A stretch of 64,000 nucleotides of DNA. It comes from Pseudomonas sp. GM79. Lineage in GTDB: Bacteria; Pseudomonadota; Gammaproteobacteria; Pseudomonadales; Pseudomonadaceae. Both the position numbers and the translations under genes were made by a program. Under the pieces are notes generated by a model. The model had not been told where the DNA came from and ran no database searches. It saw nothing but the letters and a program-made list of their open reading frames with translations. The stretch spans positions 62,001 to 126,000 of the forward strand of contig NZ_AKJE01000036.1 of NCBI RefSeq assembly GCF_000282495.1, in the 5' to 3' direction. Below are positions 38,201 through 53,426 of this stretch, piece after piece; within the stretch, counting starts at the first letter, position 1; the number at the start of each line of letters is the position of its first letter.

Positions 38201-39466
38201 TCAGCGATAGACCGGAAAACGACGGCACAGCGCGACAACCTGTTCGCGCACGTGGTGCCCGACCTTGTCGCTGTTACCGTTTTCCAGGGCGTCCAGTACG
38301 TCGCATAACCAGCCGGCCACTTGCTCGCAAGCCTCCACACCAAACCCGCGTGTGGTCACCGCCGGGGTGCCGATACGAAGGCCGGATGTCACAAACGGTG
38401 AGCGCGGGTCATTCGGCACCGAGTTTTTGTTGGCGGTGATATAGGCACTGCTCAGGGCCGCGTCGGCCTCCTTGCCGGTGTAGGGCTTGTCGGACAGGTC
38501 GATCAGCATCATGTGGTTGTCGGTGCCACCCGAGACGATCTTGTACCCGCGCTTTTGCAACACCCCGGCCATGGCCCGGGCGTTGATGACCACTTGGGTC
38601 TGGTAGATGCTGAACTCCGGCGCAAGCGCTTCCTTGAACGCCACGGCCTTGGCCGCGATCTGGTGCATCAGCGGCCCGCCCTGCACGCCGGGAAACACAG
38701 CGGAGTCGAGCTTTTTGTAGAAGGCTTCATCCTGTCCCTTGGACAAAATCAAACCGCCGCGTGGCCCGCGCAGGGTTTTGTGCGTGGTGCTGGTGACCAC
38801 ATGCGCATGGGGAAGCGGGTCCGGGTATTCGCCCGCGGCGACCAGTCCGGCGACGTGGGCCATATCGACCCAGAAGATAGCCCCTACCTTGTCGGCAATG
38901 CTGCGCATGCGTGCCCAGTCCTTGTACCGCGAATACGCGGAAAAACCACCGATCAACATTTTGGGGCGTGTCTGCAGTGCGATGCGCTCCATCTCGTCAT
39001 AGTCAAGAAAGCCGGTTTTCGGGTCCAGTCCGTAAGGCACGATGGTGTAGTGACGCCCCGAAAAGTTGGCCGGGTTGCCGTGGGTCAGGTGACCGCCCTG
39101 GGCCAGGTTCATGCCCATCACCGTGTCACCGGGGTTGATCAGTGCCAGGAAGACCGCCGCGTTGGCCTGGGCGCCCGCATGGGGTTGCACGTTGGCGTAG
39201 TCGCAGTCGAACAGGGCCTTGACCCGCTTGATGGCCAGCCGCTCGGCCACATCGACGTATTCGCAGCCGCTGTAATAGCGCTTGCCGGGGTAGCCTTCGG
39301 CGTACTTGTTGGTGAGCACCGTGCTCTGGGTTTTCATCACCAGCGGGCTGGCATAGTTTTCCGAGGCGATCAGCTCGATATGGTCTTCCTGGCGATGCTC
39401 TTCGTTGTGAATCGATTCATACAGCTCAGGGTCGAAAGCGTTGAGGGTCAGCGTCGAGTCGTACAT
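38201..39466 (-). CDS. glyA: Serine hydroxymethyltransferase (canonical copy)
   Basis: Converts serine and tetrahydrofolate to glycine and methylene-THF. 421 residues from the ATG at 39466 (AAGGA upstream). All SHMT landmarks are intact: [29 protein letters not shown] with the PLP Asp, the Schiff-base Lys230 in [14 protein letters not shown], and [15 protein letters not shown] with the carboxylate Arg. It is the last gene of benE-yggS-argD-glyA (25 bp after argD) in the putative cluster, so it is probably a dedicated paralogue supplying glycine or C1 units rather than the housekeeping glyA. Confidence 0.93.
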
Positions 39467-39491
39467 GTGCAAAGTGTCCTTGGTCAAGAAT

Positions 39492-40673
39492 TCAAGCGGC
39501 AGGTGACAGCAGGCGCGTGATGCGCGCGGCGATGTCGTCGATCTGTGCGTCATCGCAGATCAGCGGCGGCAACAGGCGCACGGTGGTGCCCCGTGTGACG
39601 GTGATCAGCAGACGTTGTTCTTCACGGGCCCGGCCGACCAGTTCGGCGCACGGGCCATTGAGTTCAATGCCGATCATCAAGCCGATGCCGCGAACGGACA
39701 CCACCTCAGGATGGTTGCCCAGCGCCAGCTTCAAGGCCGCCAACAAGCGGCGGCCCGAGGCGGCAGCGCGTTGCGGGATGTCATCGCGCTGCATGATGTC
39801 GAGCACTGTGCAGCCCACGCGGCACGCCAGCGGGTTACCGCCGAACGTGGACGCATGGTGGCCGGGGGAAAACAGCTCGGCGGCCTTGCCACGCGCCAGG
39901 CACGCGCCGATGGGGAAACCGTTGCCCAGCGCTTTGGCCAGGGTAATGACGTCCGGCTCGATGCCCGCATGCTCAAAGCCAAACCAGGTACCGGTGCGGC
40001 CCAGCCCGGTCTGCACTTCATCGATCATCATCAGCCAGTCGTGTTCATCACACAGTTGGCGCAGGGCCTGCAGGTAGCCGGCAGAGGCGACGTGCACGCC
40101 CCCCTCACCCTGCACCGGCTCGACGAGCACCGCGACGATATCGGGTGACTGCGCCGCGACCTGGCGAATCGCTTCGATGTTGTCGAAAGGCACTCGCACA
40201 AAGCCCGGCATCAGGGGCTCGAAGCCGCGATGCACGGCGGGGTTGCCGGTGGCGGCGAGGGTGGCCAGGGTGCGCCCGTGAAAACTGTTGTCCATCACCA
40301 ACACTTGCGGCTGGGTCACCTGCCGGACGTTGGCGTGCAGGCGGGCCAGTTTGAGCGCCGCTTCGTTGGCCTCCGCTCCGGAGTTGCAGAAAAACGCCCG
40401 TTGCATGCCCGAGAGCAGGCACAGTCGTTCGCCCAATTGCTCCTGCCATGGGATGCGAAACAGGTTGGTCGTGTGCAGTAACACCGTGGCCTGTTCGGCG
40501 ATGGCCGCGGCAATTTCGGGGTTGGCATGCCCCAGGCTCGTCACCGCCACACCGGCGATGGCATCCAGGTATTCAACACCCTCGGTGTCCCACAACGAGG
40601 CGCCCTGGCCTCGGCTGAACGAAACCGGTTGTCGGGCTGAGGTGTGCATGAGGTAAGCGGGTGCAGCGGACAT
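39492..40673 (-). CDS. Class III aminotransferase, ArgD-like
   Basis: 393-residue PLP enzyme of the acetylornithine/ornithine aminotransferase family. Landmarks: [49 protein letters not shown] (PLP Asp), and [18 protein letters not shown] with the Schiff-base Lys. AGGAAGG precedes the ATG. In arginine synthesis ArgD uses N-acetylglutamate semialdehyde, but inside this operon a pathway-specific amine or semialdehyde substrate is more likely. Confidence 0.88.
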
Positions 40674-40697
40674 TGCGGGCCTTCCTGTAGAGGGGGA

Positions 40698-41543
40698 TCA
40701 ACGGCTGGGAGTGATCGACAACAACGTGCCTTCACTGAGGGGGTGGGCATCGGCGGTCGGCCAGTAGTACGCATCCGGCATGGCTCGGGCACCGAAGATC
40801 GCCTGTCCGACGCGCACCACGGTCGCGCCCTCTTCAATGGCGATTTCGAAGTCACCCGACATGCCCATCGACAGCTCTTGCAGCGACACCCCATCAGGGG
40901 CGCAATGACGCAAGCGGTCGCGCAATTCACGCAGCCGGACGAAGCATGGGCGCACCCGCACCGCGTCGGCCGAGAACAGCGCCAGCGTCATCAACCCGCG
41001 AACCCGCAGTGTCGGGAACGCTGGCATAGTCTCCAGGAAAGCCGCCACGTCATCGGGAGCCAGCCCGTACTTGCTGGCTTCGCCGGAGGTATTGACCTGG
41101 ACGAACACGTCCATCTGCCGACCTTCAATGCGCAGGCGACGGTCCAGCGCCTCGGCCACCCGCAGGCTGTCCAGGGCCTGGAACTCGCTGGCGAAGCGTG
41201 CGACCTGCTTGGCCTTGTTGGTCTGCAAGTGGCCGATCACCGACCATTGCAGGTCTTGCAGGTCGGTCATGGCTTCCCACTTGCGCTGTGCTTCCTGCAC
41301 CTTGTTCTCGCCCAACAGGCGGCAACCGGCGGCATAGGCCAGACGCAGATGAGCTTCATCAAAGGTTTTGCTGACCGGCAGCAAGCGCACACCGGCCGGG
41401 TCCCGCCCTACCCGACGGCACGCCTCGACAATGCGTTGCTGCACGGCGGCCAGGTTGCGGTGAAAGTCTTCGACACTGTCGGCCTGTGGGTAACGACCAT
41501 GGCGCGCATGCAGGATGTTGAGGTCTTCGGTTTGATCAGGCAT
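40698..41543 (-). CDS. YggS/PROSC-like PLP-binding protein
   Basis: 281 residues, longer than the usual 230 of YggS, with extra N- and C-terminal stretches. Fold type III PLP barrel without a second domain: PLP lysine in RLLPVSKTFDEAHLRLA, then LLGENKVQEAQRKWE, WSVIGHLQTNKAKQVAR and LSMGMSGDFEIAIEEG. YggS manages free PLP and PLP-enzyme balance; here it may serve the many PLP enzymes of the cluster. Its ATG shares a base with the benE stop (TGATG), so translation is coupled. Confidence 0.88.
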   Translation of the reverse strand: MPDQTEDLNILHARHGRYPQADSVEDFHRNLAAVQQRIVEACRRVGRDPAGVRLLPVSKTFDEAHLRLAYAAGCRLLGENKVQEAQRKWEAMTDLQDLQWSVIGHLQTNKAKQVARFASEFQALDSLRVAEALDRRLRIEGRQMDVFVQVNTSGEASKYGLAPDDVAAFLETMPAFPTLRVRGLMTLALFSADAVRVRPCFVRLRELRDRLRHCAPDGVSLQELSMGMSGDFEIAIEEGATVVRVGQAIFGARAMPDAYYWPTADAHPLSEGTLLSITPSR

Positions 41544-42796
41544 CAGTTGGCCGCTCCTTTGGTGGGCACTGCAACAAGTTCGGCCTGTGGGACAGCAGTC
41601 TTTTCACGACGCGGCAACTGCCCATTGAGCACGGCGTAGGCCGCCAGGCCGATGACCAGCCCCCAGAACGCGCCGCCGATGCCCAGCAGGGTGATATTGG
41701 CCGCGCAGGCTAGGAAGGTGATCAGCGACGCTTCCCGCGATTTCACGTCCGCCATGGCATTGGCCAGGCTCGCGCCGAGGGTGCCCAACAGGGCCAGCCC
41801 GGCCAGGGTGGTGATGAAGGTCGCCGGGAAGGCCATGAACACCGCCGCCAGGGTCACGCCGAAAATCCCCACCAAGATGTAGAAGATGCCCGCGGCCACA
41901 CCTGCGATCCAGCGCTTGGACGGATCTTCAGACGCTTCCTTGCCAGTGCAGATGGCGGCCGTGATGGCCGCGATGTTGAAGGCATGGGAACCGAACGGCG
42001 CCATCAGCAAAGAACCCAGCCCGGTCACGCTGAGGATCGGGTTGGCACTGGTGTTGAACCCGTCATTGCGCAGCACCAGCATGCCCGGCATGTACTGCCC
42101 CGTGAGGGTGATCAGAAACAGCGGCAACGCCACGCTCAACAACGCATTGACCGAGAACTCAGGGCGTGTGAACACCGGTGTCGCAAACTCCAGCGCCAGC
42201 CCCATGAAATCCACGCGCCCCTGCATCAGCAGAAAGCCAAGCCCCAGCACCAGAATGCCGACCACCGCATAGCGCGCACTCAAGCGCTTGAACACGATGT
42301 AGGCGCCGATCAACACCCCGACCAATAACGGGTCGACGCTCATGCTGGCGAACGCACCGATGCCGAATTGCAACAGGATGCCGCCCAACAAGCCCGCTGC
42401 CACACCGGGCGGGATCAGGCGAACGGCTTTTTCAAAGTAGCCGGACACGCCCAGCAGCACGAACGCTGCAGCCGAAATCATGTACGCCCCGATGGCCTCG
42501 GCGTAGGGTGTGGTCGCCAAGGCGACGATCAAAAAAGCCGCCGCCGGGGTCGACCAGGCGGTGATGATCGGCTCGCGGCTCACCCAACTGAGGAACAGCC
42601 CGGTCACCCCTACCCCGATCGACACTGACCAAACCCACGACGCCGTCAACTCAGGGCTGAGCCCTGCGACCTTGGCGGCCTGAAACACCAGGATGAAGGT
42701 GCCGCCGTAATTGACGATCACCGAAATCAGCCCGGCAACCACCGGGTGCAGCAGGTCCCGCAGACGCAGGGACGAAAGGAATTGAGTAGATGACAT
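41543..42796 (-). CDS. BenE-family transporter
   Basis: 417-residue membrane protein of the benzoate:H+ symporter family, with about 12 hydrophobic segments. Landmarks: GLSPELTASWVWSVSIGVGV, STPAAAFLIVAL, and FGSHAFNIAAITAAICTGKE. BenE proteins carry aromatic acids, but paralogues with other cargo exist. First gene of the benE-yggS-argD-glyA operon; 124 bp separate it from serC and contain the shared CAGACCACTTTG motif. Confidence 0.88.
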   Translation of the reverse strand: MSSTQFLSSLRLRDLLHPVVAGLISVIVNYGGTFILVFQAAKVAGLSPELTASWVWSVSIGVGVTGLFLSWVSREPIITAWSTPAAAFLIVALATTPYAEAIGAYMISAAAFVLLGVSGYFEKAVRLIPPGVAAGLLGGILLQFGIGAFASMSVDPLLVGVLIGAYIVFKRLSARYAVVGILVLGLGFLLMQGRVDFMGLALEFATPVFTRPEFSVNALLSVALPLFLITLTGQYMPGMLVLRNDGFNTSANPILSVTGLGSLLMAPFGSHAFNIAAITAAICTGKEASEDPSKRWIAGVAAGIFYILVGIFGVTLAAVFMAFPATFITTLAGLALLGTLGASLANAMADVKSREASLITFLACAANITLLGIGGAFWGLVIGLAAYAVLNGQLPRREKTAVPQAELVAVPTKGAAN

Positions 42797-42893
42797 AGGT
42801 CTTGGCTCCTTGCTGGACGATGTAATCCGGCCGCTGGTAAGCGGTCATTTATAGCCGTTGAATGGCAGGTTTTACCCCTACGCTTTACCGCAG

Positions 42894-42910
42894 CAGACCA
42901 GACCACTTTG
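42894..42910 (+). promoter_or_regulatory. Candidate MocR operator upstream of benE
   Basis: CAGACCAGACCACTTTG: the AGACC unit is repeated back to back, and its last 12 bases recur inverted at 47296-47307. A CTTTACC motif lies just before it (42883-42889). It is about 100 bp upstream of the benE start. Confidence 0.55.
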
Positions 42911-42920
42911 CGCGGTCGGC

Positions 42921-44003
42921 TCAGCCATGCTCGCGCGCAAACGCGTTCATGAAATCGCACAACGCCTCGACCGCCGGCACTGAAACGGCGTTGTAGAGGC
43001 TGGCGCGCAGGCCGCCGACGCTGGCGTGACCTTTGAGGCCATTGAGGCCGGCCTGCTCGGCGCTCCGCAAAAAGGCCTTTTCCAGAGCCGCCTCGGCCAA
43101 CCGGAAGGGCACGTTGTTGATGGAGCGATACGGTAACTGCACAGGGTTGCGATAAAACCCGTCACTCCCATCGATGGCGCGGTACAGCATTCCCGCCTTA
43201 GCCTGGTTGCGCTGATGCAGGGCCTGCAGACCGCCGCTGTACTTGATCCACTTGAGCGTCAAGCCGGTGAGGTACCAGGGGAAGGTCGCCGGGGTATTGA
43301 GCATCGACTGCGCGTCGCTGATGCGCGCGTAGTTGAGAATGTCCGGGGTAAAGGCATGGGAACGCTCCAGCAACGCCGGGTCCACGATGACCACCGTCAA
43401 CCCCGCCACGCCCATGTTTTTCTGCGCGGCGGCATACACCAGCCCATGCCTGGCGATGTCGATCGGCTTGGACAGCAGGCTTGAACAAGCATCGCACACC
43501 AGCGGCGCGTCGCTCGCGGGCGTGTCGATGAACTGCACGCCGTGCACCGTCTCATTCTCGGTGTAGTGCAAGTAGGCGGCGTCGGCGTTAAGGCGCCAGT
43601 CCGAGGCGTGGGGGACGCGGTCGAAACCGGACGCGTGGGTACTGGCAACCACGCGCACATCGCAGTAGCGCCGTGCAGCCTCGATCGCCTTGCCCGACCA
43701 GAGGCCGGTGTGCAGGTAATCCGCCGTGCCTTTATCGCCTATCAGGTTCATCGGCACTTGAGCGAACTGCAACGAGGCGCCCCCTTGCAGGAACAGCACT
43801 TTGTAGGCGGGCGGCACCCCGAGGATATCGCGCAGGTCCCGTTCGGCCTCGCGGGCCACCGTCATGAACACCTGCGAACGATGGCTGATTTCCATCACGG
43901 ACATGCCGGTGCCGGCAAAATCGAAAAACTCCTCGTGCGCCTGAGTGAGGACGTCCAACGGCACCGCGGTGGGGCCTGCGCTGAAGTTGTGTGACCGAGC
44001 CAT
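42921..44003 (-). CDS. serC: Phosphoserine aminotransferase paralogue
   Basis: 360 residues from the ATG at 44003 (AGGAG 11 nt upstream). SerC features: NFSAGPTAVPLDVLTQAHEE, VMEISHRS, FLQGGASLQFAQVPMN, the Schiff-base Lys in AAAQKNMGVAGLTVVIV, and GGLRASLYNAV. It would form O-phosphoserine from 3-phosphohydroxypyruvate and glutamate. The segment before the lysine (CDACSSLLSKPID) differs a little from the common ADxSSxxLSRPID form. Divergent from the MocR regulator, so likely under its control and devoted to the cluster. Confidence 0.92.
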   Translation of the reverse strand: MARSHNFSAGPTAVPLDVLTQAHEEFFDFAGTGMSVMEISHRSQVFMTVAREAERDLRDILGVPPAYKVLFLQGGASLQFAQVPMNLIGDKGTADYLHTGLWSGKAIEAARRYCDVRVVASTHASGFDRVPHASDWRLNADAAYLHYTENETVHGVQFIDTPASDAPLVCDACSSLLSKPIDIARHGLVYAAAQKNMGVAGLTVVIVDPALLERSHAFTPDILNYARISDAQSMLNTPATFPWYLTGLTLKWIKYSGGLQALHQRNQAKAGMLYRAIDGSDGFYRNPVQLPYRSINNVPFRLAEAALEKAFLRSAEQAGLNGLKGHASVGGLRASLYNAVSVPAVEALCDFMNAFAREHG

Positions 44004-44130
44004 GGTTGAGTAACTCCTGTTCAAGAACGCTTGCCCTGTGCGTAATCACCGAGGTAAAGCCTTGGGTGGCGAGGGCCAGAGTCTACGGATAAACTGGCCT
44101 GCCTTTACCTGCCAATTCATGGAAAGAGAG

Positions 44131-44138
44131 CAGACCAC
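44131..44138 (+). promoter_or_regulatory. Candidate MocR operator at the regulator's own start
   Basis: CAGACCAC directly abuts the ATG of the MocR gene. TTTACC also occurs twice in the same divergent region, at 44104-44109 and inverted at 44053-44058, as it does before benE. Confidence 0.5.
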
Positions 44139-45635
44139 ATGGCAAAGACCTTCGAGCTGGAAACCCTGAAGATGCGCCTCAACGACGCTGAGTTTCAGCT
44201 GCTGGATTTGCACCAGCGGATCCAGCGTGCGTTGCGTGCGCTGATACTCGACGGCGCCCTCGGCCCCGGCTTGAAACTGCCCGCCACGCGGGTGCTGTCC
44301 AAGTCACTGGGCTGCGCCCGCGACACCGTTGAGAACGCCTATGTGCAGTTGCATCGGGACGGGTTTATCGTGCGCCGCGAAGGCGCCGGCAGTTACGTCT
44401 GCGACACGGTGGGCGTCGAATTGCGCGGTGCCGGCCGCCGACGCCTCAAGGCTCAGGAAGTCAGGAGCAGCGTCGCCGCACCGGGCGCCGAACTCAGCCA
44501 ACGCGGGCGGATGATCTTCGACACCGGCGGCGTGCGCGATCAGCAAGTCATCAAGGCATTCGCCACCGGCCTGCCGGAAACCCGCAGCTTCCCGACGGAT
44601 GTCTGGGAGCGTTTGCAGCGCCAGGTCATGAAGGACTATCGCGCGAACGTGCTGCTGCATGGCGATCCACAAGGGGCCGAGCCCCTGCGCAAAGCGATTG
44701 CCACCTACCTGAACCTCGAACGCGGCGCCAAATGCTCCCCCGACCAGGTGCTGGTATTGAGCAGTACGCGTCAGGCGTTGTATCTGTGCGCGCAGTTGCT
44801 GGTGGACGCCGGCAAGCCGATTCTGCTGGAAAACCCCGGCTATTACGGCGCCCGCAAGGCCTTCGAAATCGCCGAAACCAAGGTGCTGCCCATTGATGTC
44901 GATGAACGGGGCATCCGCACCGACCTGCTGTACGCCGACCGCAGCGGCGCCAATTGCGTGTATGTCACGCCTTCGCACCAATACCCCACCGGCGCGACGT
45001 TGCCGCTGGAGCGGCGTCTTGAGTTGATCAATTGGGCGGCGCAAAAACGCAAGTGGATCATCGAGGATGACTACGACAGCGAGTTCCATTACGACGGGCA
45101 ACCCACGGCGTGCGTGCAGGGCCTGGACAAGTATCAGCGCACGCTCTACATCGGCACGTTCAGCAAGACCCTCTACCCCGGCCTGCGCATGGGGTATATG
45201 GTGCTGCCCTCCGAGCTGGTCAAGCCCTTTGCCTATGCGCGCAGCATGATGGACGGCCACACTCCGCAAATGCTGCAACTGACGCTGGCGCGCTTTATGG
45301 AAGACGGCCATTACAACGCGCATGTCCGGGCCATGCGCAAGCTGTATGCCGGACGCCGGTCGATCATGCACGATGCCATCGGCAAGTACTTGAGCACGGT
45401 GGTCACCGCCGAACTGCCGCCGGGCGGGCTGCAAATCCCCTGCTTGCTGAAAGCCGGATGGTCCGAGGAAAAAACCATCCGCCAAGCCGCCACTGCCGGC
45501 GTGCAACTGTCCGGCCTCAGCGGCTTGTACGCGGGCGACCCGAAGCAACAGGGCTGGCTGCTGGGCTACTCCTCCCTGACCGCGTATGAAATCGAAGCCG
45601 CCATGTTGCGCCTGGCCAACGCCCTGAAAATCTAA
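44139..45635 (+). CDS. MocR-family regulator (GntR HTH plus aminotransferase domain)
   Basis: 498 residues. N-terminal GntR winged helix, residues about 22-90 (QRALRALILDGALGPGLKLP, then LSKSLGCARDTVENAYVQLH). Residues about 140-498 form a fold type I aminotransferase domain that senses PLP adducts: LLENPGYYGARKAFEIA, IIEDDYDSEFHYDG, and YIGTFSKTLYPGLRMGY with the PLP Lys. PdxR, GabR and TauR are such proteins. It lies between the two halves of the cluster, and direct-repeat-like CAGACCAC sites surround it. It probably activates the cluster in response to an amino acid or pathway intermediate. Confidence 0.92.
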   Translation: MAKTFELETLKMRLNDAEFQLLDLHQRIQRALRALILDGALGPGLKLPATRVLSKSLGCARDTVENAYVQLHRDGFIVRREGAGSYVCDTVGVELRGAGRRRLKAQEVRSSVAAPGAELSQRGRMIFDTGGVRDQQVIKAFATGLPETRSFPTDVWERLQRQVMKDYRANVLLHGDPQGAEPLRKAIATYLNLERGAKCSPDQVLVLSSTRQALYLCAQLLVDAGKPILLENPGYYGARKAFEIAETKVLPIDVDERGIRTDLLYADRSGANCVYVTPSHQYPTGATLPLERRLELINWAAQKRKWIIEDDYDSEFHYDGQPTACVQGLDKYQRTLYIGTFSKTLYPGLRMGYMVLPSELVKPFAYARSMMDGHTPQMLQLTLARFMEDGHYNAHVRAMRKLYAGRRSIMHDAIGKYLSTVVTAELPPGGLQIPCLLKAGWSEEKTIRQAATAGVQLSGLSGLYAGDPKQQGWLLGYSSLTAYEIEAAMLRLANALKI

Positions 45636-45808
45636 TGGCCCAGCGCATAGTTCATCAGCAGCTGCTGGGCCTGGGTGGCCATCCGCGCACGCCTGGGCAG
45701 CTTGGGGCATTCAACCGCGGTGACGGGTTGAGGCTTGGCGGTGGCGAACAGTCTGAACCGTGACGTGCGGGTGGCCGCCAGACGGCCGGTGGGGATGATG
45801 CCGGGCAT
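45632..45808 (-). CDS. 58-residue small protein downstream of the variant SHMT gene
   Basis: ATG at 45808 with AAGGA 6 nt upstream; TAG at 45632-45634 overlaps the convergent MocR stop. Begins MPGIIPTGRLAATRTSRFRL and ends LLMNYALGH; one Cys in AVECPKLPRRAR. It is Arg-rich, without membrane segment or signal peptide. It is 30 bp after the variant SHMT gene, so they are likely one transcript. No family recognised. Possibilities are a small accessory subunit, a scaffold or precursor peptide, or a poorly expressed frame. Confidence 0.6.
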   Translation of the reverse strand: MPGIIPTGRLAATRTSRFRLFATAKPQPVTAVECPKLPRRARMATQAQQLLMNYALGH

Positions 45809-45838
45809 TGGAATTCCTTTTCAAAAAAGCGCAGGCGG

Positions 45839-47137
45839 TTAATACGGCAACCTGAAACGCTTGGTCAGGTCGCTGATGCCTTCACGAATCGAGCGTTCAG
45901 TGCGGCCGTCGAGGGCACCGCTGCGCAAACCACCGAGCATGGCCAGAATCATGTCGCCGATCTCCCTGAATTCATCGACCCCCATGCCACGCGAAGTGCA
46001 CGCCGCACTGCCGAGACGAATGCCGGACGTCACGGTGGGCTTGACCTCATCGCCGGGCACGACATTTTTGTTCACGGTAATGCCGATTGCCTCCAACACA
46101 CGCTCGGCGACATTCCCCACCAGGCCCCAGGGCCGCAGGTCAATCACCCCCAAGTGACAGTCGGTGCCGCCCGACACAACCAACAGCCCACCTTCAGCCA
46201 ATCGGCCGCACAAGGCCTGGGCATTGGCGACCACGGCGTGGGCATAAGCGCCGAAGGCCGGTTGCAATGCCTCGCCCAGCGCCACGGCCTTGGCCGCTAT
46301 GGTGTGCATCAGTGCCGCGCCCTGCAGGCCGGGGAATACAGCCGCATTGATCTTCTGCGCAATGGCCTGCTCATTGCACAGGATCATCCCGCCACGCGGA
46401 CCGCGCAACGTGGCGTGGGTGCTGAGGGTGGTGACGTGGGCGAACGGCACTGGAGACGGATACGCACCACCCGCGACCAGCCCGGCGACGTGGGCGATGT
46501 CGGCCATCAGGAACGCACCCACCTCGTCGGCAATCGCACGAAACCGGACGAAATCCAGCGCCCGTGAATACGCCGAGGCCCCTGCGATGATCAGGCGTGG
46601 GCGTTCTTGTCGGGCGATCTGCTCGACCTGATCCATGTCGACCCGATGGGTCACCGGGTGCACCCCATAGCTGAGGGCCTGAAACCAGCGCCCGGACAAG
46701 TTGAACGCAGCACCATGGGACAGGTGCCCACCGGACTTGAGGTCCAGGCCCAGGATCTTGTCCCCCGGCGCCAGCAGAGCCAGAAACACAGCCTGGTTGG
46801 CTTGGCTGCCCGAATGGGGTTGCAGGTTGGCATAGGCACAGCTGAACAGTTGCCTGGCCCGCTCGATGGCGAGTTCTTCAATTGCATCGACATTGCAGCA
46901 ACCGGCGTAATAGCGACGCCCTGGGTAGCCCTCGGCATATTTGTTGGTCAGCACCGACCCTTGGGCCTCGAGCACCGCACGACTGACCACGTTTTCGGCG
47001 GCGATCAGCTCGATTGACTGCACCTGGCGCTGACGCTCGGCGTCGATGGCGCGCCACACCTCCGCGTCCACCTGGGGCAGCGCAACGCCACTGACCCCTG
47101 GCAGCGCGTGGCCCTCCCGATAAGCGAAATGCGGCAT
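45839..47137 (-). CDS. SHMT homologue lacking the catalytic PLP lysine
   Basis: 432 residues from the ATG at 47137 (GGGAG upstream); an in-frame GTG sits 6 bases earlier. Clearly SHMT-fold: [49 protein letters not shown] with the PLP Asp and His, and [15 protein letters not shown] with the Arg. At the Schiff-base position, however, the motif is [13 protein letters not shown]: Ala (codon GCC, 46412-46414; residue 242) replaces the invariant Lys. Conversion from a Lys codon needs three base changes. It cannot form the internal aldimine in the usual way, so it may bind PLP or substrate without turnover, use other chemistry, or need a partner. Confidence 0.9.
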
Positions 47138-47226
47138 GGTCACTCCCTGTGTAAACGTCCGATAACACGCCGCACTACCCTAGCCGCCCACGGACCGACC
47201 AGCCATACCAGTTCGTGCCGACGTTG

Positions 47227-47307
47227 CAGACCACTGCGCTCAATGCCGCTGCCACGCGTCTACGCAGGGGCAGGCGTCGCGAAATCGCAGCCATTCAAAG
47301 TGGTCTG
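47227..47307. promoter_or_regulatory. Two candidate MocR sites between the SHMT-like and MFS genes
   Basis: CAGACCAC on the plus strand (47227-47234) and CAGACCACTTTG on the minus strand (47307-47296), in the 260-bp divergent region. The 12-mer is identical to that before benE. Confidence 0.55.
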
Positions 47308-47397
47308 ATGGACTCATCGGTAATGGACTATCGCGCAAGACCATCGCCTCATTAAGCTCTGCGCCGGTTTTGCCATGCTCATCACACAGGTTTCGCC

Positions 47398-48612
47398 ATG
47401 ACGATTCGTATCGGGTTGTTGCCTCAGGTCGCCGCAGCGCACTTTGTCAGTCATTTGCACATCATGGTGCTGGCGGCGCTGTTCCCCCTGCTTCCGGCTT
47501 TTTTCAACGTGGATTATGTCGAGCTGGGCCTGGCTTTCAGCCTGTTCAATATCGTCACGGCGCTGGTACAGGCGCCCATGGGGTTTGCCGTGGACCGCCA
47601 CGGTGCCAGGCGCTTGCTGTTGGTCGCGCTGGCACTGGGCAGCAGCAGTTTCCTGCTGATTGCACTCCTGCCCGGCTACACCTGTTTGTTGATCGGCATG
47701 GCGCTGGCCGGCGTCGCCAACGCCATTTATCACCCGGCCGACTACGCCTTGCTGTCCCGACACATTGACCCCGCCCACATCGGCAAGGCGTTCTCCGTGC
47801 ATACCTTTGCCGGTTTCCTTGGCGCGGCCGTGGCCCCTGTGTTTTTGCTGGGTATCGCGGTGGCGAGCAACCCGGCCATGGCCTTCGCGGCGGCGGCACT
47901 GGTGGGGTTTGTCGCGCTGGCGCTGTTGTTGATCCCTGGCTCCGCACTGACCCGGGTCAGTCGCGTGCATCCCGCCGCCGACCCGACACCCCTCGGCGCC
48001 CGTCGCCTGTCACTGCTCTCGCCTATGGTGCTAAGCCTGACCCTGTTGTTCGTGCTGCTGAACCTGAGCACCGGCGCGATTGAGAAGTTCTCGGTCGCCG
48101 CCCTGATGCAAGGCCAGGGCGTGGCCTTGACCTGGGCCAACTCGGCGTTGACCGCCTTCCTCTTTGCCAGCGCCTTCGGCGTGCTGGCAGGGGGAGCCTT
48201 GGCCGACCGGACCCGCCGCCATGGCGTAGTGGCAGCCAGCGCGTTTGCCTTGGCCACCGTGCTGATGCTGCTGGTCTCCACGGCACGCTTGAGCGAGCCG
48301 GCGCTGCTGGTCGTGCTGGGGACTGCGGGTTTCCTGACCGGGGTGATCGCACCGTCCCGCGACATGCTGGTACGTGCGGCCGCCCCGAAGGATGCCGAAG
48401 GCAAAACCTTCGGCATCGTCTCTACAGGTTTCAATATCGGTGGCGCCATCGGTCCCGTCGGGTTCGGCTGGCTGCTCGACCAAGGCCACCCCGACGCAAT
48501 TTTCTGGGCCAGCGCCGCCTTCATGGGCCTGACCGTTGTACTGACCCTGATGCAGGAGCGGTCCTTGGCCAGGACCCGAAAAATGATGGCACTGCAAGTG
48601 GCATTCAAGTGA
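47398..48612 (+). CDS. MFS exporter, fosmidomycin-resistance (Fsr)-like
   Basis: 404-residue transporter with 12 membrane segments. Fsr/YfnB-like features: HFVSHLHIMVLAALFPLLPA in helix 1, GVANAIYHPADYALLSRHID, and KAFSVHTFAGFLGAAVAP. Such proteins expel phosphonate-like antibiotics and other small molecules. Standing inside the cluster, it is the best candidate for product export or self-resistance. Its promoter region carries two CAGACCAC motifs shared with the other transcripts. Confidence 0.88.
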   Translation: MTIRIGLLPQVAAAHFVSHLHIMVLAALFPLLPAFFNVDYVELGLAFSLFNIVTALVQAPMGFAVDRHGARRLLLVALALGSSSFLLIALLPGYTCLLIGMALAGVANAIYHPADYALLSRHIDPAHIGKAFSVHTFAGFLGAAVAPVFLLGIAVASNPAMAFAAAALVGFVALALLLIPGSALTRVSRVHPAADPTPLGARRLSLLSPMVLSLTLLFVLLNLSTGAIEKFSVAALMQGQGVALTWANSALTAFLFASAFGVLAGGALADRTRRHGVVAASAFALATVLMLLVSTARLSEPALLVVLGTAGFLTGVIAPSRDMLVRAAAPKDAEGKTFGIVSTGFNIGGAIGPVGFGWLLDQGHPDAIFWASAAFMGLTVVLTLMQERSLARTRKMMALQVAFK

Positions 48613-48770
48613 CCTGGGTCAATAGCCCCAGCGTGTTTTTGCCGCAGACTTGTAGGGCACCGTCCCGCATTGATTGCGCTGCCCCTCCCCCGCTTGTGCG
48701 GACCCGTTATTTTTGCAAGGACTGCACGGTAAACCCGAACACCAATAGTCGATTTCCTTGGAGTTAAAAC

Positions 48771-49733
48771 ATGGAACGTTTGAATTGTGGTACCGATGAC
48801 GTGGTAAAAAACATGCTGGCCAAACTATCCACGCTCTGGAAAACCCGCGCCGCCGTCAACAACCCGCAACCGAACTACTGGGGCCTCGCCTTTGATGCCG
48901 ACAAGCACGACTTCAGTCTGTCGCTGCTGCCGTTTCGTCATCACCAGGCCTGGCTCGAAGCCCCCCAGGACTTGCAATCCAAATGCCTGTCCTACGCGTG
49001 GGGCATCTACAACCTCAAGACCATCTACATCGAATGCAATGTGGTCGTCCCTGCCTGCGAGGACACTATCAAGACCCCGCCGCCGAGCAACAACCGCGCC
49101 CTGCTGCAGGACGTGATGTCTCAGGCACTGCTCGACGAAGCCCTGCACACGCGCATGTCCATCATGGCCTGCAACTATATCTATGACATGCGCAAACTCA
49201 CCCCGCTGGATTTCAGCGCCTTCAACCTGGTGACCTGGCGCGAGACCCTTCTGGCCAACTGCACCGCCGAATGGGAGCGACGCCTGACCCGCTTCGGCGT
49301 CGCGTGCGCCAGCGAAACGCTGATCACCGACTACCTCAAGACCATGGCCGAAGACGCCAGCATTCAGGCGGTGTGCCATGAGGTCACGCGCACCCATGCC
49401 ATGGACGAGTGGAGCCATTCCAGCGTCTTCAGCTTCGTCGCTTCCGACATCGTCAATGGCCTTAGCCGCAAGGAACGCGAGTACCTGCGCTCGATCATCC
49501 TGCGCACGGTGCAGATGTTCGCCAATAACGAAATGGGCGCATGGTCCACCGTGTTTTCTATGCTGGATTTCCCCCATGCCGGCGAGATCCTGCATGACGT
49601 GGGCGACAACAACGAAATCAGCGTCTACACCGACTCGCTCGAAGCCCTGATAGACCGGATCGGCTTGACCGGCAACGGCCTCAGCAGTGCCGAGCATGCC
49701 ATTGAAACCTTAGGCGAGAAGGCCCGCGCATGA
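48771..49733 (+). CDS. AurF-like diiron amine N-oxygenase
   Basis: 320 residues; GGAG before the ATG. Matches the p-aminobenzoate N-oxygenase AurF family. All seven iron ligands align by spacing: Glu89 (IYIECN), Glu123 and His126 (LDEALHTRMS), Glu182 (ASETLITDY), His209, Glu213 and His216 (THAMDEWSHSS). These enzymes oxidise an amine in two-electron steps to hydroxylamine, nitroso, oxime or nitro. The next gene starts within its stop (ATGA) and encodes the likely electron donor. There is no p-aminobenzoate pathway nearby, so the substrate is probably an aliphatic amino acid; this is inference. Confidence 0.9.
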   Translation: MERLNCGTDDVVKNMLAKLSTLWKTRAAVNNPQPNYWGLAFDADKHDFSLSLLPFRHHQAWLEAPQDLQSKCLSYAWGIYNLKTIYIECNVVVPACEDTIKTPPPSNNRALLQDVMSQALLDEALHTRMSIMACNYIYDMRKLTPLDFSAFNLVTWRETLLANCTAEWERRLTRFGVACASETLITDYLKTMAEDASIQAVCHEVTRTHAMDEWSHSSVFSFVASDIVNGLSRKEREYLRSIILRTVQMFANNEMGAWSTVFSMLDFPHAGEILHDVGDNNEISVYTDSLEALIDRIGLTGNGLSSAEHAIETLGEKARA

Positions 49734-50791
49734 ACTCCATGACGTCCCTCCAGGCCCTGTGCGAACACGTGAGCATTGAAACGGCCAATGTAAAAGTCTT
49801 CACTCTGCGCGCGTTGGACGCATCCGCCGAATTCCTCGACAGCCTGGAGGCAGGCAAACACGTGGCCCTGCATACCGCTGACATGGCGGGCACCCATCAC
49901 CAGCGGCTGTATTCGATCACGCGCAAGCGCGGCGCCGACCGGTTCGACATTGCGGTCAAGCGCGAAGGCCATGGCGGGGTTTCGGACCAGTTGCACGCTA
50001 TGCTGCAAGCCGGCTCGACCACCTCGGTGCGGTTTGTGGCGGGTGATATTTCGCTGGAGTCGGTTCTGGGTTGCCGACAGGTCGGCATGCTCGCCGGCGG
50101 CATCGGCATCACCTTGCCGATTGCGTTGCTGCGCGGCCTGGTCGAGCGCGCGCGACGCGGACTGGAGGTGCCCGATGTGAGCCTGCTGCTGTCTGTGCCG
50201 ACCGTCGCCGAGATTCCGTTTCTACATGAGTTGCTGGAGCTTGAGCTGACCACATCGTGGTTCTCCTTGCAGGTGTTCGTCACCCGCGAAGCGGTCAACA
50301 ACAACGGGCACTTCAGCGCCGGTCGTCCCCAAGCCCAGGACCTGAGCCGGCTGGGTAACCCCGAGAGCGTGGTGATCTGCGGCAGCCATGGCTTCGCCCA
50401 GGGCATGCGCGAACACACGCTGGCCATGTTCCCCGCCAGCCGCTTGCTGATCGAGTCATTCACGCCACCGGCCGCGCCGGTCACCGCCGCACAGACCGAG
50501 GCTCAGACCGACACGACGCTGCGCCTGTACTTGAACCACAACGATCAGGTGCTGGAGCCACCCGCCGGCAAGAATTTGCTGGAGATGCTCGAAACCAGCG
50601 GTATTGCGGTGCGCAGCCTTTGCCGCGCCGGCATCTGCGGTCACTGCCGGCTGAAGGTGTCGGAGGGTCACTACACCCTTGAGCCCGACTTTTGCCTGAC
50701 GGACAAGGACAAGGATGAAGGCTACGCCCTCGCCTGCTGCACCTTCCCGCAATCCGGGACGATCAAGGTCGAACTCACCACCACGGCATGA
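49730..50791 (+). CDS. Flavin/[2Fe-2S] oxygenase reductase (VanB-like)
   Basis: 353 residues. N-terminal flavin-binding barrel (HQRLYSITRKRG), NAD(P)-binding part (LAGGIGITLPIALLRGLVE), and a C-terminal plant-type [2Fe-2S] ferredoxin domain: Cys cluster LCRAGICGHCRL and the fourth Cys in LACCTF. This is the phthalate-dioxygenase-reductase order. It overlaps the AurF gene by 4 bp, so it is almost surely the dedicated reductase that recharges the diiron centre. Confidence 0.92.
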   Translation: MNSMTSLQALCEHVSIETANVKVFTLRALDASAEFLDSLEAGKHVALHTADMAGTHHQRLYSITRKRGADRFDIAVKREGHGGVSDQLHAMLQAGSTTSVRFVAGDISLESVLGCRQVGMLAGGIGITLPIALLRGLVERARRGLEVPDVSLLLSVPTVAEIPFLHELLELELTTSWFSLQVFVTREAVNNNGHFSAGRPQAQDLSRLGNPESVVICGSHGFAQGMREHTLAMFPASRLLIESFTPPAAPVTAAQTEAQTDTTLRLYLNHNDQVLEPPAGKNLLEMLETSGIAVRSLCRAGICGHCRLKVSEGHYTLEPDFCLTDKDKDEGYALACCTFPQSGTIKVELTTTA

Positions 50792-50828
50792 ACCGTTACC
50801 GTCCTTACTTCAACAACTGGGTTTTTCC

Positions 50829-51539
50829 ATGAAAACTGCCATTGCATTGCGCCACATTCACTTCGAAAACGTTGGCACCCTGGATGCCGTTCTGGCCGAA
50901 GAAGGCTATACGCTGATTTACCTGGACCCTACGGTCGACGCCATCTACAGCGAGCAGGTGTTGCAGGCCGACTTGCTGATCATACTCGGCGGCCCTATCG
51001 GGGCCCATGACGAGCAGCTGTATCCGTTTTTGCACGACGAATTGAAGCTGGTGCGCCAGCGCGTTGCGTCCGGTAATCCCCTGCTGGGCATCTGCCTCGG
51101 TGCGCAATTGATCGCCCGGGCCATGCACGCCAACGTCTACCCGATGGGGGTCAAGGAGATCGGTTTTTCACCGCTGACCCTGACCGCGGCCGGCCGGGAC
51201 TCGCCGCTCGCCGCGCTGATGGACACCCCCGTGCTGCACTGGCACGGCGACCAGTTCGATGTGCCGGAAGGCGCTGTGCTGCTGGCCAGTACCCAGGTGG
51301 GTGCTCATCAGGCGTTCGCCGTGGGCAACACGATTCTCGGCCTGCAATTTCACCTCGAAGCCGATACCGCCAACATCGAGCAATGGCTGGTTGGCCATGC
51401 CAGCGAACTGGCACAAACCGGCATCGATCCTGTTGCGTTGCGGAGCGAGGCCATTAACCTCGGCGACCGCCTGACCCGCGCTGCGGGCCACGTCATGCGG
51501 GCCTGGCTGAACAACCTGGGCACCCCGATAAAACACTAA
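50829..51539 (+). CDS. Class I glutamine amidotransferase-like protein
   Basis: 236 residues with the GATase-1 fold: ILGGPIGAHDE, nucleophile Cys89 in LLGICLGAQLIARAMHA, and catalytic His in LGLQFHLEADTANIE. There is no synthetase domain. Homologues include GuaA-like stand-alone hydrolases and gamma-glutamyl peptide hydrolases (YfeJ/PuuD-like). In the cluster it could supply ammonia for amide formation or remove a gamma-glutamyl protecting group. The ATG at 50829 has no clear ribosome site; it is 38 bp after the reductase stop. Confidence 0.85.
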   Translation: MKTAIALRHIHFENVGTLDAVLAEEGYTLIYLDPTVDAIYSEQVLQADLLIILGGPIGAHDEQLYPFLHDELKLVRQRVASGNPLLGICLGAQLIARAMHANVYPMGVKEIGFSPLTLTAAGRDSPLAALMDTPVLHWHGDQFDVPEGAVLLASTQVGAHQAFAVGNTILGLQFHLEADTANIEQWLVGHASELAQTGIDPVALRSEAINLGDRLTRAAGHVMRAWLNNLGTPIKH

Positions 51540-51617
51540 AGGCGGTCGGGCAACCTCCCCCGCATTTGCACCGTGTAAAACCACCTGAAAAATACCGTCA
51601 AGGATGAGGAGTCAAAA

Positions 51618-51986
51618 ATGATCGTAGTTTTGTTTGAGTTGCAGGCACTGCCAGGCCAGGGCGAGACCTATGTTGACCTGGTCAACAAGCTGACCCCGCT
51701 GCTTGAACCCATGAGCGGGTTTATCTCCGTCGAGTGCTTTCAAAGCACGCTGAACCCCAAGAAGGTGATGTCGGTCACCACCTGGCGCGATGAGGAAGCC
51801 GTGGTGCAGTGGCGCAACGTGACAGCCCACCTGTCGGCCCAGCGCGCCGGGCGCGACAAAATCTTCGATGACTATCGCGTGCGCGTGACATCGGTGATTC
51901 GTGATTACGGCCTGCGTGATCGCGAACAGGCACCGTACAACGTAGTGGTCGACGGTGAACCCGCCACGGCTGCCGCGGTGGTATAA
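51618..51986 (+). CDS. Antibiotic biosynthesis monooxygenase (ABM) domain protein
   Basis: 122 residues; GGAG 6 nt before the ATG. A single ferredoxin-like ABM domain (FELQALPGQGETYVDLVNKL, then SVECFQSTLNPKKVMSVTTW, then EEAVVQWRN). Such dimeric proteins include cofactor-free quinol monooxygenases and heme-degrading enzymes, and they are common in biosynthetic clusters. Last gene of the aurF-reductase-GATase-ABM set. Confidence 0.88.
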   Translation: MIVVLFELQALPGQGETYVDLVNKLTPLLEPMSGFISVECFQSTLNPKKVMSVTTWRDEEAVVQWRNVTAHLSAQRAGRDKIFDDYRVRVTSVIRDYGLRDREQAPYNVVVDGEPATAAAVV

Positions 51987-52498: not shown

Positions 52499-52987
52499 AT
52501 GAACGCCGTACACATCATTTTCGGCCCTCTCGGGGCCGGTAAGTCGACACTAGCTCGGCAGATAACGGCCCAGCTAAACGCTGTCAGCTTCTCGATTGAT
52601 GAATGGATGCAGCGTCTATACGGCCCAGATCTGCCTCAGCCCCTTAGCCTGGAATGGGTGCTTCCCCGTGTTAGACGTTGCGAGGCGCAAATATGGGAAA
52701 CGTGCGTGCAGGTTCTAGCGTCGGGCAAGGACGTGGTGCTGGATCAAGGCTTTATGACGAAAGCAGACCGCACTCAAATCCGACTACAGGCCCACAACGC
52801 GGGCTATGAGGTGCTTAGCCACTTCGTAAATGCCGATAAGCCGCTACGCCTTGAGCGCGTACTGCAACGAAACCTGGAAAAAGGCGCGGGCTATTCGTTC
52901 GAAATAACGGCCCAAATGTTCGAGGCCATGGACGCACGCTTTGAATACCCATCCCCATCCGAACTGAAGGAGTGTTGCAATGTATGA
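52499..52987 (+). CDS. P-loop kinase-like ATPase (AAA_33/zeta-toxin-like)
   Basis: 162 residues; AAGGTG before the ATG. Walker A is IIFGPLGAGKSTLARQI; an acidic residue follows in SFSIDEWMQRL, and the DVVLDQGFMTKADR segment resembles Walker B. The C-terminal ERVLQRNLEKG is like the LID/Arg region of small-molecule kinases. Relatives phosphorylate antibiotics, nucleosides, sugars or UDP-sugars; the target is unknown. Its stop overlaps the MarR start by 8 bp. Confidence 0.85.
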   Translation: MNAVHIIFGPLGAGKSTLARQITAQLNAVSFSIDEWMQRLYGPDLPQPLSLEWVLPRVRRCEAQIWETCVQVLASGKDVVLDQGFMTKADRTQIRLQAHNAGYEVLSHFVNADKPLRLERVLQRNLEKGAGYSFEITAQMFEAMDARFEYPSPSELKECCNV

Positions 52988-53426
52988 CTACACACCGGGT
53001 GCGGAAGGCACTTCGCCCTCAACACTTGAACGCTATATCCGCATATCCCGGGCATACACTGCCGCCACTCGGCGTATCGACGCCAAACTCTCCGCCGTGC
53101 ATGGGTTGAGCTTTAGCGACTTCATGATTCTGCATCATCTTAAGCAAGCCCACGGCGGTAGGCTTCGTCGTGCAGATTTGGCAGAGTGCATGGGCTTAAC
53201 CGCATCAGCCGTAACCAAGTCCCTTCTGCCCTTGGAAAAAATAGGTTGGGTATCTCGCCAAAGCGATCCCCGCGATGCGCGCGTTGGTTATGCGTGCTTA
53301 ACCCCCGCGGGCGCGCAGCTCGTTGATGACGCGGTGCTGACTGCAGAGAGTTCGTGCCAGGAAGCTTACCAAGCCATCTTCGGCGAGATGACCGTCACCC
53401 TTGAGCCAACCGCCGCGAGAGAGTGA
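52980..53426 (+). CDS. MarR-family regulator
   Basis: 148 residues. Winged-helix MarR core: LSFSDFMILHHLKQAHGGRL, then LAECMGLTASAVTKSLLPLE, then the wing RQSDPRDARVGYACLTPAG. It is co-translated with the kinase. It probably controls its own operon through the TAGGTAAAGTACCTA palindrome at the promoter. Confidence 0.9.
   Translation: MYDYTPGAEGTSPSTLERYIRISRAYTAATRRIDAKLSAVHGLSFSDFMILHHLKQAHGGRLRRADLAECMGLTASAVTKSLLPLEKIGWVSRQSDPRDARVGYACLTPAGAQLVDDAVLTAESSCQEAYQAIFGEMTVTLEPTAARE

Follow-up and report, generated by a model that had tools for sequence, protein, structure and literature searches.

An AurF-type oxygenase and its reductase in Pseudomonas sp. GM79 as the probable dnfA-dnfB pair of a Dirammox cluster that includes a serine hydroxymethyltransferase homologue without its catalytic lysine

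A 64,000-nucleotide stretch of the genome of Pseudomonas sp. GM79 (contig NZ_AKJE01000036.1, positions 62,001 to 126,000 of the forward strand; hereafter the window) carries a pair of overlapping genes that we assign to the dnf system of Dirammox (direct ammonia oxidation). The first gene, the dnfA orthologue (48771..49733, plus strand), encodes an AurF-family diiron oxygenase of 320 amino acids (aa), and the second, the dnfB orthologue (49730..50791, plus strand), encodes an NAD(P)H reductase of 353 aa whose domains are an FAD domain and a C-terminal 2Fe-2S domain. DnfA matches Pfam AurF with an E-value of 7.4e-51 and 173 bits (cut-off 29.6), and DnfB matches Fer2 (4.1e-15) and FAD_binding_6 (6.9e-8), with NAD-binding matches slightly under their cut-offs. 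The two open reading frames (ORFs) overlap as ATGA in the window and likewise in all nine Pseudomonas loci compared (L003-L011), in agreement with an earlier account made from the letters alone (the sequence-only reading), which had proposed an oxygenase with a dedicated, overlapping reductase.

Alignment with AurF (3chh) and CmlI (5hyg) places the iron ligands of the window DnfA at Glu88, Glu123, His126, Glu182, His209, Glu213 and His216. No ligand is lost or replaced in any of the 14 sequences aligned or in any of the 26 rows of a broader set, AurF and CmlI among them. The sequence-only reading had located the full set but had named Glu89 as the first member, and this needs correction, as residue 89 is Cys and the first ligand is Glu88. 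The predicted fold of DnfA (predicted local distance difference test score, pLDDT, 79.5; the model served for fold comparison only) has CmlI (5hyg) and AurF as its best matches, so that domain match, intact ligands and fold all bear out the proposed AurF-type diiron oxygenase. A reductase 44-96% identical to that of the window adjoins the AurF gene in 17 of the 21 genome loci examined for it; in L018-L020 a distinct reductase (30% to that of the window) replaces DnfB, and in L022, where DnfA is truncated, no adjoining reductase was found.

Some irregular forms of the pair were also seen. DnfA is apparently truncated in Proteus columbae (L022; 216 aa ORF) and apparently split into two ORFs in Verminephrobacter At4 (L023), and one Pseudomonas locus (L054) has a 258 aa ORF between DnfA and a DnfB-like reductase. 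A fused dnfA-dnfB gene was suspected from a long open frame in genome G287 and was rejected, since the ORFs are separate.

The Pfam and fold matches to AurF and CmlI, both arylamine N-oxygenases, could be taken to favour an oxygenase for an aromatic or new amine that is functionally unrelated to Dirammox, which was the view of the sequence-only reading. In a tree of 26 rows (23 of 88 loci picked for spread, together with the window, AurF and CmlI), 20 DnfA-like proteins form one clade with support of 98/98. Outside it lie AurF, CmlI with a Rhodococcus homologue, the homologues of Burkholderia glumae and Tistrella, and a second AurF-like protein of the same genome, on several long outer branches whose order is unsure. 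The window DnfA thus groups neither with AurF or CmlI nor with the Burkholderia homologue. The fold and the seven ligands are alike, but DnfA-like rows are only 24-31% identical to AurF and CmlI, belong to a different clade and have different gene partners, and the window DnfA scores 95 bits against the NCBIfam 4-aminobenzoate N-oxygenase model, which requires 620. Moreover, the gene is linked to dnfC and dnfR, and none of the 12 cluster genes scanned is an aromatic-amine or nonribosomal peptide synthetase (NRPS) gene, as the sequence-only reading had also noted. We therefore regard an aromatic or new amine as a very improbable substrate.

Two other AurF homologues were seen in the course of this comparison. 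The second AurF-like protein of the genome (G000:C21:67630-68322) has all seven ligands and was set aside as a relevant paralogue, its 27% identity being too distant. The homologue on a Burkholderia glumae plasmid (L087) lies beside aminodeoxychorismate synthase genes and NRPS/polyketide synthase genes and is probably an AurF of the p-aminobenzoic acid type.

The pair stands within a cluster of 12 genes at 38201-51986, six of which belong to families that bind pyridoxal 5'-phosphate (PLP). Downstream lie the dnfC orthologue, a class I glutamine amidotransferase (50829..51539, plus strand; a start at 50715 is possible, and 50829 was picked from alignment with relatives), and a gene for an ABM-domain protein (51618..51986, plus strand), which follows dnfC in Pseudomonas and Delftia and follows PdxK in genome G1634. 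Upstream is an MFS transporter gene, assigned by domain match (47398..48612, plus strand), that was not found in L003, L008, the Delftia loci or G1634. It is preceded by the dnfT2 orthologue, a homologue of serine hydroxymethyltransferase (SHMT1; 45839..47143, minus strand) in which the PLP lysine, residue 244, is gone (THK to THA). Next come the dnfR orthologue, a MocR regulator with GntR and aminotransferase domains that keeps K343 (44139..45635, plus strand), and the dnfT1 orthologue, an extra copy of phosphoserine transaminase SerC that keeps K202 (42921..44024, minus strand). Further upstream, all on the minus strand, are a BenE-family membrane transporter (41543..42796), an extra YggS-family PLP-binding protein with K59 kept (40698..41543), an extra ArgD-like class III transaminase with K247 kept (39492..40673) and a second, also extra, SHMT (SHMT2; 38201..39553) with its lysine kept.

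The published cluster of Alcaligenes has the order dnfT1-R-T2-A-B-C (PMC9136411; here and below, the literature is cited for the available passages of each paper), its regulator DnfR is of the MocR type (PMC12575085), and the ligands given for DnfA (PMC9478400) are the same seven residues, with the same numbers, as those found in the window. The window has this order, with the MFS gene inserted between T2 and A, and combines the DnfA ligands, DnfB reductase, DnfC amidotransferase, MocR-type DnfR and the SerC and SHMT genes in their published places. In comparison with dnfT1RT2ABCD of Alcaligenes ammonioxydans HO-1 and A. faecalis, six gene types, their order and the ligand numbers are alike, whereas dnfD (PdxK) was not found in the window, YggS, ArgD-like, second SHMT, BenE, MFS and ABM genes are additional, and the window dnfT2 is without its lysine (a state known here for the window side only). 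Both versions of the cluster are united in G1634 (L081), in the order ArgD, YggS, BenE, SerC, MocR, SHMT, DnfA, DnfB, DnfC, PdxK and ABM, which comprises all seven dnf functions in the published order as well as YggS, ArgD and BenE; its DnfA, DnfB and DnfC are 82%, 60% and 70% identical to those of the window. PdxK is also present in L015 and L016. The DnfA of A. ammonioxydans HO-1 bears the accession WP_003803202.1 (PMC9136411).

The sequence-only reading had considered the substrate probably new. However, the amidotransferase, MocR, SerC and SHMT partners, which that reading had passed over, belong to the published dnf cluster (PMC9136411). A new substrate therefore gives way to Dirammox, whose reported substrates are hydroxylamine and nitrogen derived from glutamine (PMC9478400, PMC11440038, PMC11160463); the substrate is thus probably not new. 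Carriers of dnfABC named in the available part of a 2024 paper are Pseudomonas cedrina, Delftia lacustris, Pokkaliibacter L1E11, Verminephrobacter At4, 'Microvigula' and others (PMC11440038). Several of our loci come from these strains or taxa (L016, Pokkaliibacter L1E11; L023, Verminephrobacter At4; L008, P. cedrina; L012-L014, Delftia). The window adds a further carrier to a known system whose occurrence in Pseudomonas is already in print; the available passage lists dnfABC, without the PLP genes or the lysine loss.

Gene identity, gene order, ligands and clade were all observed directly in this analysis, and the best overall explanation is, with high probability, that the pair is dnfA-dnfB of a Pseudomonas Dirammox cluster with Dirammox chemistry. 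In Alcaligenes, the dnf system has been described as converting ammonia, via glutamine, to hydroxylamine and nitrogen gas. By homology, the window genes would encode a glutamine-amide N-hydroxylase, its reductase and a hydroxamate hydrolase, which together would yield mainly hydroxylamine. DnfB would take electrons from NAD(P)H and deliver them, by way of FAD and the 2Fe-2S centre, to the diiron site in DnfA; the two proteins together would N-hydroxylate the amide nitrogen of glutamine, or of a closely related glutamine-derived amide; DnfC would cleave the hydroxamate to release hydroxylamine; and DnfA could take hydroxylamine on to N2. These steps are taken from published Alcaligenes work, which is partly disputed, and the Pseudomonas proteins would be expected to catalyse the same reactions.

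According to the published work, purified DnfA binds hydroxylamine, not ammonia, and converts it to N2 with O2, NADH and FAD (PMC9478400). Glutamine synthetase is required, with glutamine as an intermediate, and DnfC hydrolyses glutamine and glutamyl hydroxamate (PMC11440038). Furthermore, E. coli carrying dnfABC yields hydroxylamine and N2 (PMC9136411), and in the knockouts cited in PMC11160463 deletion of dnfAB leaves zero hydroxylamine and that of dnfC almost none. Glycine in growing cells and serine in whole-cell assays also give some hydroxylamine in Alcaligenes, which the authors ascribe to the glutamine route rather than to direct oxidation (PMC11440038).

Several points weigh against the assignment and its chemistry. 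DnfB gave no significant gain in vitro over DnfA with FAD and NADH (PMC9478400), DnfA bound hydroxylamine but not glutamine and its direct oxidation of glutamine is a proposal only (PMC11440038), certain Alcaligenes that bear dnfABC yield no hydroxylamine (PMC11440038), and N2 has been argued to arise by abiotic decay of hydroxylamine (PMC11160463). In addition, the window has no match to the PdxK of L015 at an E-value of 1e-10; we count dnfD as accessory because dnfABC suffices in E. coli. Lastly, the grounds for orthology with the Alcaligenes genes are annotation, gene order and ligand numbering, as none of the DnfA matches in the order of a Delftia-like genome (3 of 379) or among relatives of G1634 (2 of 140) could be recognised as coming from Alcaligenes, and two published Alcaligenes dnfA primers matched none of 80 loci.

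From the papers, the proposed route can be likened to those of trichostatin A (TsnB6/7/9) and benzohydroxamic acid (SaAmOx/SaHAT), in which glutamine is converted to glutamyl hydroxamate before an amidotransferase-like enzyme acts, and TsnB7 has been termed an AurF homologue (PMC11160463). Unlike the window, these systems hand the hydroxamate group to a carboxylic acid; TsnB was compared by description only.

With regard to distribution, the closest named loci are from Pseudomonas (98-99% identity). DnfA matches with an E-value of 1e-60 or better occur in 14 of 298 Pseudomonas genomes sampled, nine of them at an identity of at least 83%, own genome included, which gives the frequency of the trait in the genus. 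Outside Pseudomonas they are rare, with 1 of 369 genomes in the class sample (that of the window itself), 3 of 398, again with that genome counted, in the phylum sample and, around a Delftia-like genome that is itself counted, 2 of 399 in the family and the 3 of 379 in the order.

Other arrangements of dnfA were observed besides these. In Enterobacterales (Pectobacterium, Rouxiella, Pantoea), a second kind of cluster (L018:7275-13208, L019, L020, L060 and L085, a Pantoea plasmid) combines an arylamine N-acetyltransferase, a serine hydrolase, an MFS gene, DnfA (67%), the distinct reductase (30%) and an ATP-grasp protein, without dnfC, and may pass glutamyl hydroxamate into a product rather than free hydroxylamine. 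Minimal Pseudomonas loci (L055-L058) have dnfC followed by DnfA (57-61%) and DnfB (34-38%). Next to their dnfC is a divergently oriented ORF (435-436 aa) for which a MocR-like identity is a guess.

The genes that Pseudomonas adds to the published cluster, YggS, the ArgD-like transaminase and the second SHMT, are extra copies of families found elsewhere in the genome. The genome of the window has five SHMT copies (two in the cluster and three elsewhere at 55%), two of SerC (51%) and two of YggS (40%), and the nearest other copy of the ArgD-like gene is 58% identical. No report of these additions or of the lysine-less SHMT was found in the literature searched. After removal of apparent duplicates (L051/L010, L082/L015 and L083/L012 each counted once), YggS is present within the stretch examined in 21 of 27 loci that have dnfA, dnfB and dnfC; of the exceptions, L014 ends at a contig end, and L021 and L055-L058 are without it. 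An ArgD-like gene (58-59%) lies about 6 kb from dnfA in L055 and L056 and is perhaps the housekeeping copy. The conserved lysine is kept in 8 of 8 SHMT2 rows, 15 of 15 SerC, 26 of 26 ArgD, 22 of 22 YggS and 22 of 22 MocR rows (for the last four families, housekeeping or other paralogues above the cut-off are counted in), and from the family motifs we take these columns to be the PLP lysines. As a side observation, L050 (G219) has a stop codon in the aligned YggS stretch, though an ORF of 84% identity is present. In A. faecalis, yggS (AFA2_00794), at another locus than dnfA (AFA2_03346), is up with dnfABC in nitrifying cells (log fold change, logFC, 3.30; PMC8629993).

SHMT1 departs from this pattern. 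Among 40 distinct rows (50 hits, with identical ones merged and those of at most 330 aligned residues omitted), SHMT1 of Pseudomonas, Delftia and G1634 forms its own clade with support of 100/100, apart from all other SHMTs. The lysine of the TTHK motif is replaced in 12 of 18 SHMT1 rows (Ala in nine, Thr in three). All 12 are from Pseudomonas, which has 13 rows in the clade; the thirteenth (L053), G1634 and the four Delftia-type rows retain the lysine. The window has GCC (Ala) where the Schiff-base lysine follows TTH. Judging from the tree and the codons, the loss may be a single event that passed from Lys through Thr to Ala in related rows. At many conserved positions SHMT1 is unlike the housekeeping SHMTs. 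It keeps the flanking TLRGPRGG motif, and D215, H243 and R376, which are presumably PLP-site residues, are invariant. Across eight target loci, the ratio of nonsynonymous to synonymous substitution rates (dN/dS) between the window and seven other lysine-less copies is 0.06-0.17, with no stop codons, and that of DnfA against the same loci is 0.035-0.124. By these ratios the lysine-less SHMT1 is under purifying selection, much as DnfA is, and one PLP protein of the cluster has thus lost its anchor lysine and yet is retained. Such a protein may still hold PLP or an aldimine, as work on lysine mutants of SHMT suggests. A structure model of SHMT1 was too poor (mean pLDDT 57.1) and was set aside. 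On lysine-less SHMTs in the literature, nothing on point was found among the results listed, most subscription papers being outside the search.

One explanation sees in the PLP genes ordinary duplicates that travelled along with dnfABC and serve serine/glycine metabolism or carbon and nitrogen balance, the lysine-less SHMT being a drifting relic. This would fit the existence of dnf loci without PLP genes and the departure of SHMT1 from its housekeeping relatives, but a relic would hardly be expected to show such low, stop-free dN/dS values, much as for DnfA, or three invariant positions of the presumed PLP site, and the remaining PLP genes retain their lysines. We consider it a real possibility, short of an even chance.

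Secondly, SHMT, SerC and the transaminase could build hydroxylamine or glutamyl hydroxamate into an amino acid as part of a secondary metabolite, with free hydroxylamine as a leak. The co-regulated amino- and hydroxymethyltransferases have been taken as a hint of a biosynthetic pathway (PMC11160463), TsnB6/7/9 of trichostatin are known to transfer a hydroxamate derived from glutamine (PMC13418202), and the cluster has MFS and BenE transporters. However, dnfABC alone yields hydroxylamine in E. coli (PMC9136411), the PLP gene set differs between taxa while dnfABC is constant, and no ligase or carrier-protein gene is among the 12 annotated cluster genes. Moreover, in most Pseudomonas rows the SHMT adjoining dnfABC no longer has the catalytic lysine, and the normal SHMT reaction is therefore hardly possible. 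A biosynthetic pathway is thus unlikely in our view.

A third possibility is that the PLP genes, switched together with dnfABC by DnfR, would sustain PLP metabolism while hydroxylamine, which captures PLP by forming an oxime, is produced. O-substituted hydroxylamine derivatives trap PLP as oximes (PMC11557217), and dnfT1RT2ABCD of Alcaligenes is controlled by dnfR (PMC9355588). In favour of hydroxylamine tolerance are the additional PLP enzymes of the cluster, its carrier and supplier of PLP, the shared sites and an SHMT that is hardly an ordinary enzyme any longer, and also the rise of yggS with dnfABC in A. faecalis. We propose such a role for the PLP genes, rather than a biosynthetic pathway, only tentatively and at less than an even chance, and find it at least as likely as the biosynthetic hint of PMC11160463. 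With the same reserve, one can imagine an immunity layer that guards vitamin B6 enzymes against poisoning by hydroxylamine. It would be made up of spare PLP enzymes (SerC, ArgD, SHMT2), of YggS and PdxK as carriers or suppliers of PLP and, in Pseudomonas, of the lysine-less SHMT, all of them switched with dnfABC by the PLP-binding DnfR. The lysine-less SHMT would bind PLP or its oxime non-enzymatically, as a sponge, carrier or oxime-clearing protein, and DnfR could sense hydroxylamine as the PLP oxime. The dnf loci L021 and L055-L058, without YggS, SerC and SHMT, speak against tolerance. Nothing on point about hydroxylamine immunity by PLP genes was found among the literature results listed, within the same limit on subscription papers.

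Shared control could act through GTGGTCTG, a candidate DnfR operator. It came from a spaced 4+4 search of 12 loci (duplicates and the near-identical L004, L005, L007, L012, L014 and L052 excluded), with a score of 8 against 1-2 in three mononucleotide shuffles that ignore the kinship of the loci. Four of its five copies in the window lie in gaps of the dnf cluster: between serC and benE (42899..42906, minus strand), between serC and mocR directly before mocR (44131..44138, minus strand), and in the divergent gap between dnfT2 and the MFS gene, where a site at 47227..47234 (minus strand) has an inverted partner at 47300..47307 (plus strand). With at most one mismatch per site, each of the 12 loci has both the copy ahead of mocR and the inverted pair, which lies between dnfT2 and MFS or, where the MFS gene is missing, in the single dnfT2/dnfA gap. 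The number of copies in the window is in itself weak evidence, as shuffled sequences average 2.14 and 4 of 100 have as many as 5, and the weight for a putative operator would come from position and conservation. No exact copy lies in the MFS-dnfA gap, directly before dnfA, when MFS intervenes, a point against the tolerance reading, and no good 13-mers are shared between cluster gaps. For Alcaligenes, PMC12575085 cites a 2023 study of multiple sites bound by DnfR. Just past the cluster, at 52499-53426 of the window, an AAA_33/zeta-toxin-like kinase gene overlaps that of a MarR-family regulator by eight bases.

To summarize, the link to heterotrophic ammonia oxidation settles the question of the substrate as far as homology permits. 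In Alcaligenes HO-1, hydroxylamine serves to suppress Bacillus (PMC9355588). A conserved SHMT that lacks the catalytic lysine next to a source of hydroxylamine is an unusual object, and the tentative idea of tolerance addresses an open point of Dirammox, namely the reason why SerC, SHMT, pyridoxal kinase and YggS accompany a pathway to hydroxylamine.

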